Below the pieces are notes generated by a model that saw only the letters and a list, made by a program, of their open reading frames with translations, had not been told where the DNA came from and searched no databases. From NCBI RefSeq assembly GCF_007846085.1, contig NZ_VOEJ01000001.1:1-64000 (forward strand): DNA of 64,000 bases, read 5' to 3'. This document shows positions 48,165 to 56,658 of this stretch, piece after piece. The stretch's first letter is position 1. Every line of letters starts with the position of its first letter. The stretch is from Mucilaginibacter pallidiroseus. Its GTDB lineage: Bacteria > Bacteroidota > Bacteroidia > Sphingobacteriales > Sphingobacteriaceae. The translations under genes and the position numbers were made by a program.

Positions 48165-50000
48165 TTGAATATTACCCTCATTAGCGACAAGGCAGCCTTG
48201 CTTGCCATCATAAAAAGTTTGCCGGGAAATTTTCTTATTTTATTGCCTGATGCGCCCCGGTTTACAATTGTCGAGGTGAGTGACGAGTATAACCGCGCTA
48301 CCTTTACAAAGCGCGAGGATATCATTGGAAGCGCAATGTTCGAGGTTTTTCCGGATGATCCGGCTGATTTATATGCTGATGGTGTCGCCAATCTTAACGC
48401 ATCTTTTCATACGGTGATTAGTACAAGGCAAAGTCACGAGATGGGTATACAGCGTTATCCTGTGCAGGACGGGGTGTCTAACACTTTTGTTGAGAAATTT
48501 TGGGCACCCGTTAATAAGCCCGTTATTGTTGAGGGCGAGGTTGCCTATATAATTCATTCCGTTACGGATGTTACCGAAAGCAGGTTGCTCAAATCGCGTG
48601 AGCAATATTTTATGGCACTTGCAGAGCAATCTCCATTTATGATTTGGCGAAGCGCGGGAGCATCCTGTATTTATGTAAACAATGCCTGGATGGAAACTAC
48701 TGGTTTGTCTTACGAAGACAGCCTTGGCTCGGGGCACCTCAAGGCGTTTCATCCCGATGATATTCCGGAACAACGTAAGTTATTTGCAGGTGCTTTAGAA
48801 AGCCGTACATCATACGAAACGAAGTATCGCATTTTTGATGCTGAAGGCAAAATAAGGTGGGTTTTTATGAAAGTAACACCTTTGCTAATGGAAGGCGCTA
48901 CCATAGAATTTGTAGGCAGCATGATTGACATTACCGACCAGGAAATAGCAGCGCAAAGGGTAATTGAAAGCGAAACTCAATTCAGGCAAATGGCTGATTC
49001 AATTATCCAGATGATATGGGTAACAGATGCAGAGGGAATGCACGAATACTATAATCAAAGATGGTATGACTTTACGGGCGCAACACACGAGCAAACGGAA
49101 GGTGAGGGGTGGAACCAGGTTTTTCATCCCGACGACCAGGAACGCGCCTGGAAAGTATGGCGCCACTCACTCGATACCGGCGAACCGTATGAAATTGAAT
49201 ACCGTTTAAGAAAATACACAGGCGAATATGTATGGGTGTTGGGCAGGGCCGCACCTTATTATGATAACGATGGCAAAATATTGAAGTGGTTTGGCACTTG
49301 TACCGATATTAACGAGCAAAAGCTTTTACAACAGCAAAAAGACGACTTTATTAATATTGCCAGCCATGAATTAAAAACACCGTTAACAAGCTTAAGTGCC
49401 AATATTCAGTTTCTGCAAAAGATGGTAAGCAATATTGCTGGTGGCAGCCCTATGCTCGAAAAGCTGGTATTGTCATCTGTAACAAACGTTAGGAAACTTA
49501 ATAAGCTGATAGATGAGTTACTTAACGCAAACAGCATTGGCCTGGGGCAGTTAACAATTTGGAAGGAGAATTTTGATCTGGTTGCCTTGGTAAAAGACTC
49601 TGTGGCTTATTTGTCTAACGATAACCAACCGGTTGTGATTACGGGCGAGGAAACCGCCAAGGTGTTTGGCGACCCTGTTAAGGTTGAGCAAATTGTGGTT
49701 AACCTGGTTAACAATGCCCATAAATATGCAAGAGAGTCGAAGTATGTGGAAGTTAACGTACAGTCAACTTCTTCAGGATATATGGTAAGGGTGATTGACC
49801 AAGGGCCTGGTATTAAGGAAGATCAGCAGAAGTTTCTGTTTGACCGTTATTACCAGGCCGAAAATCGGGTTGGGCGTAATTCAGGCATGGGGTTGGGATT
49901 ATTTATCTGCGCAAGTATTGTAAAAGCCCACCATGGCGAAATTGGTGTTGAGAGTGAGCCTGGAAAGGGAAGCATATTTTGGTTTACCCTGCTTAAATAA
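48165..50000 (+). CDS. Soluble triple-PAS sensor histidine kinase
   Basis: 611 residues. I keep the TTG at 48165 because no ATG occurs between the upstream stop and it, and the next ATG (48333) would cut into the first PAS domain. PAS domains at about 5-140, 145-265 and 270-395; HisKA with FINIASHELKTPLTSLSANI; HATPase with VNLVNNAHKYARESK, VIDQGPGIKED and GMGLGLFICASIV. No transmembrane segment. None of its PAS units carries the LOV cysteine motif seen in the 51513 kinase. Its stop is 7 nt from the convergent DUF892 gene; the partner regulator may be one of the two single receivers at 50.6-51.5 kb. Confidence 0.9.
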   Translation: MNITLISDKAALLAIIKSLPGNFLILLPDAPRFTIVEVSDEYNRATFTKREDIIGSAMFEVFPDDPADLYADGVANLNASFHTVISTRQSHEMGIQRYPVQDGVSNTFVEKFWAPVNKPVIVEGEVAYIIHSVTDVTESRLLKSREQYFMALAEQSPFMIWRSAGASCIYVNNAWMETTGLSYEDSLGSGHLKAFHPDDIPEQRKLFAGALESRTSYETKYRIFDAEGKIRWVFMKVTPLLMEGATIEFVGSMIDITDQEIAAQRVIESETQFRQMADSIIQMIWVTDAEGMHEYYNQRWYDFTGATHEQTEGEGWNQVFHPDDQERAWKVWRHSLDTGEPYEIEYRLRKYTGEYVWVLGRAAPYYDNDGKILKWFGTCTDINEQKLLQQQKDDFINIASHELKTPLTSLSANIQFLQKMVSNIAGGSPMLEKLVLSSVTNVRKLNKLIDELLNANSIGLGQLTIWKENFDLVALVKDSVAYLSNDNQPVVITGEETAKVFGDPVKVEQIVVNLVNNAHKYARESKYVEVNVQSTSSGYMVRVIDQGPGIKEDQQKFLFDRYYQAENRVGRNSGMGLGLFICASIVKAHHGEIGVESEPGKGSIFWFTLLK

Positions 50001-50007
50001 TTTGACG

Positions 50008-50538
50008 CTACTTTGCAGTAACATACTTAGCAGTGATCAGCAGTAATAACGTACGGTCAGCCTTAGCCTCATCGTAATTTTCTTTAATCAGTTGCTTTAT
50101 CTGTTTATTCTTAAGCTTAACAGCTGCCATCTCTAATACCTGGAAAGAGGCCATCTCTACACTTTCAATAGTTTGCATATAAAAAGCGATAGACATATCG
50201 CGCAATTCAGGATCATTGCTGTGCAACTTTATGTCTTCAAAAGCGTCGTCAACCAAACCAGCCAAACCGCTGTAATTACCTTTTCCACGGTCGGCATCCA
50301 TTATGGCATAAATGATGTCCATCCTTGCCAGCTGCTTTTCCACATCTTCAAGCGTCTCTAGTATGGCCATCCTAAGATCTGCAAAATGCACTTCGTCTGC
50401 AATTTCAGGAAGGTGTTTTACTAAATGGCTTTTTGCAGCGTATATTTTGTCGAGATTATTTATAAAATACGTCCTTAACTTTTGTGGGCCTAAAGCAATT
50501 TTACCGTTTGGCTTTTGCTGGTTTGATCTTTTTTCCAT
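50008..50538 (-). CDS. DUF892/YciF-like ferritin-fold protein
   Basis: 176 residues, all helical: LRTYFINNLDKIYAAKSHLV, FADLRMAILETLEDVEKQLARM, SIAFYMQTIESVEMASFQVL. The ferritin-like four-helix bundle with Glu/Tyr/Asp at regular spacing fits DUF892 (YciE/YciF), stress-induced proteins of unclear function. It lies among receivers and the LOV kinase on the minus strand, so it may be their regulated target. Confidence 0.75.
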   Translation of the reverse strand: MEKRSNQQKPNGKIALGPQKLRTYFINNLDKIYAAKSHLVKHLPEIADEVHFADLRMAILETLEDVEKQLARMDIIYAIMDADRGKGNYSGLAGLVDDAFEDIKLHSNDPELRDMSIAFYMQTIESVEMASFQVLEMAAVKLKNKQIKQLIKENYDEAKADRTLLLLITAKYVTAK

Positions 50539-50600
50539 TAGGGTCAGTTAACATACAAATATACGACTTAACCACAATCATGGAATTATCGTTTTACTAA

Positions 50601-50963
50601 CTACTTCATGCAGGTTTTTACCTTTAGCAGCAGGTCGTAAATATCAAATGGTTTGGTAATATACAAATCTGCGCCACACTGATTGGCTAGCATTGCCAGG
50701 TCTGTTTCCGCAGAAACTAACACAACAGGTATTTTTTTTCCCGGATAAGATGATTTAATTTCCGCACAAATCTGATCGCCTCTTTTCGCCGATCCCGCTA
50801 TGCGTACGTCTAATAAAATTACGTCGGGGTTTATGATATGTATATTATCGGCTGCTTCGCCTGTGTTTGATACCACCACATTGTATCCTTCGTCCCTAAA
50901 TATGATGTGCAGAATATCCAGGATGTCCTCGTCGTCATCAATTATGAGTATCCGCTTGTTCAT
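50601..50963 (-). CDS. Single-domain response regulator (receiver only)
   Basis: 120 residues from the ATG at 50963; a GTG 9 nt upstream is also open. Contains IDDDEDILDIL, phospho-acceptor Asp in VILLDVRIAGSAKRGD, VSAETD and YITKPFD. There is no output domain, so it acts as a relay or by protein contact. The loop after the Asp is longer than usual (RIAGSAKRGDQ). Same strand as the LOV kinase and second receiver. Confidence 0.92.
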   Translation of the reverse strand: MNKRILIIDDDEDILDILHIIFRDEGYNVVVSNTGEAADNIHIINPDVILLDVRIAGSAKRGDQICAEIKSSYPGKKIPVVLVSAETDLAMLANQCGADLYITKPFDIYDLLLKVKTCMK

Positions 50964-51132
50964 GCCAAGCACACATCAAGATTCATACCTAATGGTTAAT
51001 AAAACCTTGTTTAAGGTTAAATAAATTAAATTGCTCTAATAAATTTCCAATATCTCGGTTTTTTGCAATCGGGTCGTATTCAACATACTGCCCATGTGTT
51101 GGCAAATTCATACTTAATGTCCTGAAAAATTT

Positions 51133-51513
51133 TTAAGACGCAATTTGTTCACCGCCCAACAAATGTCTATTTACTATTGATAGCAGCGCATCAATATCAT
51201 ACGGCTTTTCAAGGAAGTCGTTAGCACCGGCTGCAAAAGCGATTTCGCGGCCATCCCTGCTTGCAGATATCACGATGATGGGTATGCTTTTTACTGCTTC
51301 GTCGCTCCTGAGCTGTCTCGCAACCTGGTCGCCAGAGAGGCCCGGCATCCATAGGTCAAGCAGTACAATATCAGGCTTTTCGCTGGCCACGAGTTCCGTA
51401 ACGGTAAGGCTGTTTATAGTAGGGATAACAGTATAGCCCTCGGCCTCGAGTATCATTGATGTTATATCTAATATTTCCTGTTCGTCGTCGCAAATAATAA
51501 TTTTAGCACTCAT
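51133..51513 (-). CDS. Single-domain response regulator of the LOV kinase
   Basis: 126 residues: ICDDEQEILDI, phospho-acceptor in IVLLDLWMPGLSGDQVA, VISASRDG and DFLEKPYDIDALL. Receiver only. Its ATG overlaps the kinase stop by 1 nt (TAATG), so the pair is translationally coupled and almost certainly cognate. As no DNA-binding domain exists, the output must be through another protein, perhaps the second receiver or a phosphotransfer partner. Confidence 0.94.
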   Translation of the reverse strand: MSAKIIICDDEQEILDITSMILEAEGYTVIPTINSLTVTELVASEKPDIVLLDLWMPGLSGDQVARQLRSDEAVKSIPIIVISASRDGREIAFAAGANDFLEKPYDIDALLSIVNRHLLGGEQIAS

Positions 51514-53042
51514 TATGCTCGATTAATAGGTACAGTAAAGTTGAATACAGAGCCTTTGCCCTCATCGCTATCTACCCAAAGGGTACCTTTATGTTCTTTA
51601 ATAATTTGTTTACTAACGTATAATCCAATGCCTACACCTGGAAACTTTTCGGTGGTGCGTTCCGAGCGATAAAACCGCTCAAATATTTTGCGTTGATCAT
51701 CTGCATTTATGCCGATACCAGTGTCGGCAATGGCAACCTTTACAAATTCATCGTCTTTGGTAACATGTATTTTAACTTCTTTTGCCGCCGGCGAATATTT
51801 TACAGCGTTGCTCAGCAGGTTTATCAGTACCTGTTCAAGGCGGCCAAAGTCGGCAGTAACGTCGGTATTGCATTTACTGGTTATAATGAGCTGATGCGTT
51901 GGTGTGGTTACCTGCACCCCTTTAACAGCCTCCTCAACCAAATGATCAAAATTAAAAGTGGTATAATGAAACTCCACCTTGCCCGATTGTATTTTCGAAA
52001 CATCAAGCAAATCATAAATCAGTCGTTCGAGCCTGGCAATAGATTTTGTTGCCGTAGCAAAACCATTTAAGTAAGCGGTGTCATTGTTTTTTATCGCCTG
52101 GCGCTCCAGCAATTGGATGTTACCTTTAATGCTGGTTAAAGGCGTTTTCATCTCGTGGCTTGCAATGCTTATAAAATCTTCTTTTCGCTGTTCCACTTCC
52201 CGTCGTTCGGTGATATCCTCAATGGCGAGTAATATCCTGTCCTGATATTTACCTTCCAGCACAATTTGGCGGGCATTTAAAACCAGCAGTTTGCGGCCAA
52301 TATCCGGAAATTCGTTCTCGAGTTCGAAACCCTCAAACGGGTTATTATGGGGCAAAACGTTTACCAGGAGATCTTTTAACTCAGGTATATTCCACTGCCC
52401 ATCGCCAAGGCTAAGCAAACCTTTACCAATAACATCCGCACTTTTTACCTGGAAAAACTTACAAAAGTGTTCATTGACGCCCAATATTTTTAAGTCTTCA
52501 TTCAGTACAACTAAACTTTCGCGTATTGTCTCAATTATACTGGCAAGATAATCCTCGCTCTCTTGCAAGTCTTGCGTACGCTCAGTTACCCTCTTCTCCA
52601 AATTAGCCTTTTCATCGGCCAAAGCATTTTCGGCATTTTTGCGCGCAGTAATATCATTCTGGATGCCAATGAAGTGAGTTATCTGGCCGTTGCTGTCCTT
52701 TACCGGCGATATCCTCAGTTCGTTCCAGATCATCTGCCCGTTTTTTTTATAGTTGCGAAGCTCAACTTTGCAATGCTCACCGGCAGTTATTGCACCAAGA
52801 AGTGCTTCACGACCTTTCTGCTCACGATCATTGGCTTGCAAAAAGCGACAGTTACGGCCTATAATCTCGTCTTTGGTGTAACCTGTTATTTGTTCGAAAG
52901 CAGCATTGCAATAAATTATCGGCTGGTCGGGCTGCGTGTTGTCGGTTATCACCACGCCATTGCTTGATGCGTTAACCGCCGCGGCGAATATCCGGATATC
53001 CGCTTGTTCAATATTGGGGAACTGATCGTGAAATTCGTCCAT
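51513..53042 (-). CDS. LOV-domain (blue-light) sensor histidine kinase
   Basis: 509 residues, soluble. Residues 15-140 form a LOV domain: GRNCRFLQ at 62-69 with the photoactive Cys65, flavin-contacting Asn97 and Asn107 (LRNYKKNG, MIWNELRISPV), and Gln128 in HFIGIQND. This is the full LOV signature, so it should bind FMN and form a cysteinyl adduct in blue light. A second PAS (about 155-285, LGDGQWNIPELKDLL), HisKA with FISIASHEMKTPLTSIKGNI and HATPase with LINLLSNAVKYSPAAKE, IADTGIGINADD and GVGIGLYVSKQII follow. It is coupled to the receiver at 51133. Confidence 0.95.
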   Translation of the reverse strand: MDEFHDQFPNIEQADIRIFAAAVNASSNGVVITDNTQPDQPIIYCNAAFEQITGYTKDEIIGRNCRFLQANDREQKGREALLGAITAGEHCKVELRNYKKNGQMIWNELRISPVKDSNGQITHFIGIQNDITARKNAENALADEKANLEKRVTERTQDLQESEDYLASIIETIRESLVVLNEDLKILGVNEHFCKFFQVKSADVIGKGLLSLGDGQWNIPELKDLLVNVLPHNNPFEGFELENEFPDIGRKLLVLNARQIVLEGKYQDRILLAIEDITERREVEQRKEDFISIASHEMKTPLTSIKGNIQLLERQAIKNNDTAYLNGFATATKSIARLERLIYDLLDVSKIQSGKVEFHYTTFNFDHLVEEAVKGVQVTTPTHQLIITSKCNTDVTADFGRLEQVLINLLSNAVKYSPAAKEVKIHVTKDDEFVKVAIADTGIGINADDQRKIFERFYRSERTTEKFPGVGIGLYVSKQIIKEHKGTLWVDSDEGKGSVFNFTVPINRA

Positions 53043-53336: not shown

Positions 53337-53780
53337 ATGACATTGGTTAAATTTAATTCGGACAGAAAAAACAATGGTTCATTTTTGCCAGGCATTAATG
53401 ACGTTTTTGATTCGATCTTTAACGACACCTTTTTTAACGACCGTATGGCAACACGGGTGCCGGCAGCAAACATCAGCGAATCTGAAGACCATTACCACGT
53501 TGAGTTGGCAGCACCGGGATTAAAAAAGGAAGATTTCAAAATCAGCCTTGATCGTAACATGCTCAATATTTCTGTAGAGCAGCAACACGAAAACAAAGAC
53601 GCGCAGAAAAATTACAGCAAACGCGAGTTCAGTTATAACTCATTTGTGCGCTCGTTTACACTGCCAGATAGCGCGAATTACGAAAATATTGAAGCGTCAT
53701 ACAACGATGGCGTGTTATCGATTGATATTGCCAAACGCGAAGAGGCGAAGATGGTTCGTCGCCAAATAGAGATTAAATAA
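53337..53780 (+). CDS. Small heat-shock protein Hsp20
   Basis: 147 residues. Alpha-crystallin domain about 40-140: ATRVPAANISESEDHYHVEL, APGLKKEDFKISLDRNMLNI, SFTLPDSANYENIEASYNDG, GVLSIDIAKRE. The C-terminal I-x-I-like tail (RRQIEIK) is present. ATP-independent holdase chaperone. It has its own terminator and an exceptional ribosome binding site, indicating high expression under stress. Confidence 0.95.
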   Translation: MTLVKFNSDRKNNGSFLPGINDVFDSIFNDTFFNDRMATRVPAANISESEDHYHVELAAPGLKKEDFKISLDRNMLNISVEQQHENKDAQKNYSKREFSYNSFVRSFTLPDSANYENIEASYNDGVLSIDIAKREEAKMVRRQIEIK

Positions 53781-53800
53781 TTCGTTTAACATCTAATTCC

Positions 53801-53827
53801 AAGGCCCCGGTAAGGGGCCTTATTTTT
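53801..53827 (+). terminator. Intrinsic terminator of hsp20
   Basis: 8-bp stem AAGGCCCC (53801-53808) / GGGGCCTT (53814-53821), 5-nt loop, then a T-rich tract up to the next gene's ATG at 53830. Confidence 0.88.
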
Positions 53828-53829
53828 TT

Positions 53830-54126
53830 ATGAAAACTCAATATTATATTTTGCTTAGCTTAAAAACACCTGCCGGGTTTGAATATTTTGGCCAGTTTGA
53901 ATTGGGCAACGATAAGGATGCTGCAAACACGCTCTTCATCAATCTGGAGGGTGATCCCGAGCCTGACGGCCGTGCAGTTTTGCACATCGATCAAATGGAA
54001 ACGGTAGATGCATTGCCTGTTAAAATAAATACCAAGTGCTGCACGCTTGATGAACTTGCAAGTAACATCAAAATAATAGCCCGTGAAACATTCCGTTTGA
54101 AAAACCTGCGAAACCTTGACGAGTAG
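53830..54126 (+). CDS. Hypothetical protein, 98 residues
   Basis: Starts MKTQYYILLSLKTPAGFEYF and continues FGQFELGNDKDAANTLFINL, with a helical C-terminus (LASNIKIIARETFRLKNLR). It begins 3 nt after the hsp20 terminator T-run, so its promoter must lie within hsp20 or it relies on read-through. No known family; composition looks genuine. Confidence 0.6.
   Translation: MKTQYYILLSLKTPAGFEYFGQFELGNDKDAANTLFINLEGDPEPDGRAVLHIDQMETVDALPVKINTKCCTLDELASNIKIIARETFRLKNLRNLDE

Positions 54127-54372: not shown

Positions 54373-56658
<2,286 letters not shown>

Follow-up and report, generated by a model that had tools for sequence, protein, structure and literature searches.

In this study, we analysed a stretch of 64,000 nucleotides from Mucilaginibacter pallidiroseus (the window), in which the gene of a histidine kinase with a LOV domain (LOVK; positions 51513..53042, minus strand; 509 amino acids; LOV-PAS-HisKA-HATPase) is directly followed by the gene of a receiver-only protein (RR1; 51133..51513, minus strand; 126 amino acids). 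Probably, the two constitute a LovK-LovR-type two-component pair for blue light, which rests on a HisKA-type kinase and has RR1 as phospho-acceptor, acting as sink or adaptor. Our strongest inference, drawn from gene order and sequence comparison, is that RR1 is the cognate receiver of LOVK, while the light response of LOVK and phosphotransfer to RR1 are predicted. LOVK-RR1 would thereby be a blue-light pair that can be tested and is widely conserved among plant- and soil-associated Bacteroidota.

The kinase was assigned by Pfam, PDB matches, alignments and an AlphaFold2 model. Pfam detected a PAS domain at residues 28-133, corresponding to the LOV domain (PAS_9, E=1.6e-33), a second PAS domain, HisKA at 287-354 (PF00512, 5.8e-16) and HATPase at 400-506 (PF02518, 6.4e-30), i.e. 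a kinase core of the HisKA type. The domain limits were set to 17-135 for LOV, 132-172 for the signalling helix, 176-276 for PAS, 278-353 for DHp and up to 505 for CA, and the protein is a soluble kinase. GRNCRFLQ occupies residues 62-69 with the reactive cysteine at position 65 in the protein's own numbering, and the flavin contacts N97, N107 and Q128 are in place, confirming the complete LOV signature described in an earlier note on this DNA. For LOVK homologues, alignments of 17 genus members, of 34 members and of 93 rows (a few of them one locus fetched twice) were used. In the latter, N64, C65, R66, Q69, N97, N107 and Q128 are invariant (93/93 rows). PDB matches to LOV photoreceptors and HisKA kinases cover the whole length (best E 5.8e-46 for the whole protein), and the first 140 residues resemble the LOV proteins of the PDB, including chimeric LOV histidine kinases, the short LOV proteins of P. 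putida, YtvA, the Brucella LOV histidine kinase and phototropins. Together, the invariant residues and these matches leave no room for a chance assignment of the LOV domain.

The catalytic kinase motifs of LOVK are all intact. The predicted phospho-acceptor is His296 in the motif HEMKT (HExxT, H296-E-M-K-T300) within the DHp domain, and H296, E297, T300, D440 and the G boxes are invariant among the homologues. The HExxT motif goes with HisKA proteins having kinase and phosphatase activities, and both activities are therefore suggested for LOVK. The spacing from the LOV domain to the phospho-acceptor histidine hardly varies in length across the alignments, as expected if the signal travels along coiled-coil helices. 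In the AlphaFold2 model (mean pLDDT 81.5, pTM 0.43; the domain packing is not reliable) the elements follow in the expected order A'alpha-LOV-helix-PAS-DHp-CA, with helix 132-172 linking LOV to PAS, followed by the DHp helices 278-318 and 322-353. The best Foldseek matches of this model include the chimeric LOV histidine kinases 8a6x and 4gcz and the Brucella LOV-PAS histidine kinase 6ph4.

The arginines around the phosphate of flavin mononucleotide (FMN) allow a kinetic prediction. LOVK carries R66 at C+1 and Leu82 at C+17 (R79 in YtvA); at the latter position, 45 of the 93 rows have Arg and 31 have Lys. Of the four-Arg cluster of PpSB1-LOV (R54, R61, R66, R70), described for this slow-recovering protein also in PMC13322254, three members have counterparts in LOVK (R66, R73, R78; R73 and R78 corresponding to PpSB1 R61 and R66) and the fourth is Leu82. 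Because these three FMN-phosphate arginines are shared and mutation of R61 and R66 in PpSB1-LOV made recovery 280-fold faster (PMC5314338), slow dark recovery is a reasonable prediction for LOVK.

The final A of the LOVK stop codon TAA is also the first base of the RR1 start codon ATG (CATAATGAG). The overlap of the kinase stop with the start of a receiver-only protein, as stated in the earlier note, thus holds; it is 1 nt long, and the two genes are translationally coupled. Response_reg is the sole Pfam domain of RR1, and its residues (acidic pair D9/D10, D53, S83, K103) are those of a phosphorylation-competent single-domain response regulator without output domain. In 76 of 82 distinct LOVK homologues from Mucilaginibacter, Pedobacter, Daejeonella, Sphingobacterium and Chryseobacterium, RR1 lies directly downstream of the kinase gene, mostly overlapping it or nearly so. 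Tree distances of LOVK and RR1 correlate with r=0.75, the maximum of 1000 permutations being 0.22. About 21 of the 61 receiver matches of the source genome sit in frames of less than 150 amino acids; receiver-only proteins are thus common there, and the presence of one at the LOVK locus is not special by itself. In a branch lacking RR1, the gene after that of the LOV kinase encodes a 522-amino-acid protein (L042:2317-3885, L044:9262-10830), the L042 copy of which has no Pfam match.

In the proposed mechanism, blue light would lead to a Cys65-FMN adduct in LOVK, the resulting change would be passed through the coiled-coil helix 132-172 and the PAS domain to the DHp helices, and the balance between kinase and phosphatase activities would shift. 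LOVK and RR1 would then exchange phosphate. Lacking an own effector, RR1 would serve as phosphate sink or shuttle or as protein adaptor; other histidine kinases, for example the PAS kinase next to the cluster, would be its probable targets. No DNA-binding response regulator was present among the surrounding genes, the nearest one of OmpR length being located about 13 kb away (C1:37973). This agrees with the earlier view that a DNA-binding output is missing locally, and the receivers without output domain support the idea that the signal leaves through protein contacts.

Several points weigh against this interpretation. Flavin binding, the light effect and phosphotransfer are all predictions, one FMN-phosphate arginine (C+17) is replaced by Leu82 while R66, R73 and R78 are kept, and the tree correlation may partly result from shared species descent. 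Six of the 82 homologues have no adjacent RR1, and a LOVK-type kinase can therefore work with other receivers. In addition, some effects of Caulobacter LovK-LovR seem to be light-independent (PMC4844311).

The receiver-only protein RR2 (50601..50972, minus strand; Response_reg only by Pfam; ATG at 50963, giving 120 amino acids, is a likelier start than GTG at 50972) lies 160 bp behind RR1. It is followed by a DUF892 protein (50008..50538, minus strand; PF05974, 2e-19), in front of which the RR2/DUF892 intergenic region contains the box TATATTTG (50556..50563, minus strand), by pattern match only a Bacteroidota -7 promoter element. In 26 of 28 loci the gene after RR2 is DUF892, mostly with no LOV kinase adjacent, and LOVK (E<=1e-100) is absent from 13 of 31 RR2-bearing genomes. 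Co-located genes occur in at least three arrangements, namely LOVK-RR1-RR2-DUF892, RR2-DUF892-LOVK-RR1 and a convergent one. By these distributions, RR2-DUF892 is a module separate from LOVK-RR1. It was correct that a second receiver and a DUF892 protein follow on the same strand, while the latter lies just outside the interval 50601-53042 and has a promoter-like box of its own, and both form a separate unit; the equivalence of the two receivers assumed before is not supported, RR1 being assigned to the kinase and RR2 to DUF892. Specificity residues were considered as proof that RR2 belongs to LOVK and rejected, as residues of the I14/I17/I21 type are by eye common to RR1, RR2 and unrelated receivers. 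In M. conchicola (L163:28-860), the LOV kinase beside RR2-DUF892 is split into two frames by a frameshift or an assembly error.

The model of the DUF892 protein (pLDDT 91; TM to 2gs4 0.84 for the query, 0.84/0.92 in both directions) has the fold of the YciF/YciE stress proteins. In contrast to these, the RR2-linked subfamily has lost several acidic and histidine positions: E36K, H62T, H126S and E158A distinguish it from unlinked or ordinary DUF892 proteins and are shared by most RR2-linked members. Several of the conserved acidic and histidine residues in the helices, the presumed metal site of YciF/DUF892, are therefore not retained in the window protein. This suggests that the presumed metal site was lost in the RR2-linked subfamily and that its members are pseudo-ferritin-like partner proteins. 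Apart from the lost YciF residues, the sequence is highly conserved within the subfamily (alignment A3). The RR2-DUF892 module points to an uncharacterised receiver output. It would be a separate stress-type partner unit, repeatedly co-located with LOVK-RR1, and probably belongs as a second branch to one network with it.

With respect to the extent of this network, the main alternative is that LOVK controls both receivers by phosphorylating RR2 besides RR1, and that RR2 would signal via DUF892 in a four-gene unit. LOVK and RR2 lie at most 10 kb apart, in several gene orders, in 10 of the 18 genomes with both, against 0.13 expected under random placement and uncorrected for relatedness, and RR2 is present in 18 of 36 LOVK genomes compared to 13 of 85 others (Fisher, 1.7e-4). 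However, the genomes are related and these counts are not independent, LOVK is missing altogether from many genomes and loci with RR2-DUF892, and the 160-bp gap as well as the promoter-like box before DUF892 speak against it. We regard control of both receivers as a tentative possibility, with somewhat less than even chances. A broader scheme is a Bacteroidota blue-light stress network without any DNA-binding regulator, in which a HisKA-type LOV kinase and neighbouring non-light kinases would share RR1, and RR2 would signal by binding a YciF-fold protein which lost its presumed metal site and turned into a phosphorylation-controlled effector; this we consider doubtful.

Two further explanations concern the input and the output of the LOVK-RR1 pair. 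LOVK might chiefly sense the redox or flavin state, or act independently of light as phosphatase or phosphotransferase, instead of being a physiological photoreceptor, for which the stress-type genes nearby in the window (DUF892, Hsp20, KatG) could be taken as indication. This is unlikely, as none of the 93 aligned rows deviates at the adduct cysteine or at any flavin contact, a conservation that a light-inactive flavin sensor would not need. A classical phosphorelay from RR1 via a histidine phosphotransfer protein (Hpt) to a DNA-binding regulator encoded elsewhere appears quite improbable. One free-standing Hpt protein is encoded in the genome (C13:343482), but away from the cluster and as a single one for about 21 receiver-only proteins, and no Hpt gene stood out as a conserved neighbour in the loci inspected, whose neighbours were not systematically searched for Hpt.

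A blue-light pair LOVK-RR1 would have its closest analogue in LovK-LovR of Caulobacter crescentus, known for roles in the general stress response and adhesion. Both consist of a soluble LOV kinase and a receiver-only partner encoded as an operon, without DNA-binding output and in a stress-type setting. LOVK differs by its HisKA core (PF00512) and the extra PAS domain, whereas Caulobacter has one of the HWE-type systems tied to PhyR/EcfG, which are described as alphaproteobacterial. Caulobacter LovK moves phosphate from the shared single-domain receiver MrrA to LovR, thereby draining MrrA (PMC5964349). With LOVHK of Brucella abortus, acting with LovR and PhyR, LOVK shares the LOV-PAS-histidine kinase order and the fold (matches to 6ph4/6pps) as well as a receiver-only partner, LovR being the proposed phosphate sink in Brucella (PMC4438053). 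However, LOVHK is an HWE-family kinase (PMC4438053), its partner PhyR controls an anti-sigma switch, and it is LOVK whose gene overlaps the receiver gene. Only HisKA, and no HWE/HisKA_2 core, was found in LOVK by Pfam. The NCBIfam model BluLightHisKinLov gave 128 bits (cut-off 450) with the LOV part only; NF052652 (YtvA_fam) gave 157 bits (cut-off 250 over the full protein), again from the LOV part only, which places LOVK outside the YtvA family. Because of the HisKA core and the score far below the cut-off of the blue-light kinase model, LOVK is by sequence not a member of the LovK/LovHK family, though LovK-LovR-like. Such a layout on another kinase type would suggest that the pairing of a light kinase with an output-less receiver arose more than once. 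The best PDB matches also comprise the YtvA-FixL chimera YF1 and SB1F1/SB2F1, in which a coiled-coil helix likewise connects LOV with the histidine kinase; unlike LOVK, these are engineered, have no second PAS domain and act on the DNA-binding partner FixJ. The natural LOV-PAS-HisKA scaffold of LOVK is close to engineered optogenetic LOV kinases.

That this layout is little described in Bacteroidota stands insofar as no functional study of a LOV kinase/receiver-only pair from the phylum was found in the literature searched, most subscription papers being outside reach; the layout itself is a close analogue of the alphaproteobacterial LovK-LovR. The same literature yielded no papers on LOV in Mucilaginibacter, Pedobacter or Chryseobacterium, and for Bacteroidetes/Bacteroidota as a whole only off-topic papers and one review in which the phylum is listed. 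LOV proteins of Bacteroidetes/Chlorobi were already included in the counts of a review from 2014.

LOVK-type kinases were detected in 36 of 121 genomes of the genus (E<=1e-100) and in 9 of 395 sampled phylum genomes (E<=1e-120), while a LOV-like domain was found in 61 of the latter (E<=1e-22; Cys motif checked in the best matches only). A scan of named genomes yielded LOVK in Mucilaginibacter, Pedobacter, Daejeonella, Sphingobacterium, Chryseobacterium, Epilithonimonas and Niabella. Sphingobacteriaceae and Weeksellaceae thus commonly have the system, which is sparse in other groups. The source genome encodes a second LOVK (C1:805313, 50% identical) with a receiver after it.

Tail-to-tail with the DUF892 gene and pointing towards the cluster lies the gene of a PAS-PAS-HisKA-HATPase kinase without a receiver gene of its own (48165..50000, plus strand). 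The same neighbour occurs in genome G046, a 613-amino-acid homologue in Daejeonella lutea, and in genome G069 it adjoins LOVK; the order LOVK-RR1-RR2-DUF892 plus a convergent histidine kinase is common to the window, G046 and D. lutea, and is found in M. pineti with a different kinase. That several relatives have this kinase or one like it in the corresponding position favours its suggested involvement. Of 74 LOVK loci, 38 have a further histidine kinase no more than about 4 kb away, compared to an expectation of about 0.1 per locus, estimated from about 50 kinases in 4.25 Mb. These comprise GAF-PAS kinases, long PAS kinases, a bacteriophytochrome (Sphingobacterium griseoflavum) and the PAS kinase of the window. 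The excess would fit several sensors sharing RR1 and is suggestive only, many of the loci being related.

Two candidate neighbours were rejected. A phytochrome as regular upstream partner was discarded, as the upstream genes of about 700 amino acids in Chryseobacterium and Sphingobacterium encode GAF-PAS kinases and true phytochromes were seen only in L039 and L139. Instead of a photolyase/cryptochrome, the neighbours of 500-530 amino acids encode a mannosyltransferase-like protein, a phytochrome core, a PAS protein and one protein without Pfam match. An Hsp20 gene and/or a gene for 98 amino acids without Pfam match recur near LOVK or RR2-DUF892 loci (window 53337-54126; L040, L098, L121, L165, L174), hinting at a stress-gene neighbourhood, and a KatG gene is located at 54379 in the window.

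Elsewhere in the source genome (L141:2041-8899; C1 about 782-789 kb), a phytochrome-like PAS-GAF-PHY protein that lacks a kinase domain and whose N-terminal motif is degenerate is encoded beside a 1483-amino-acid kinase with a CheB-like start and two receiver-only proteins. In G046 (L039), the gene of such a phytochrome, with that of a long kinase behind it, is oriented divergently to the LOV kinase gene. The source genome also encodes a typical bacteriophytochrome kinase of 737 amino acids (L142:4028-6241), and sensors for red and blue light therefore coexist there.
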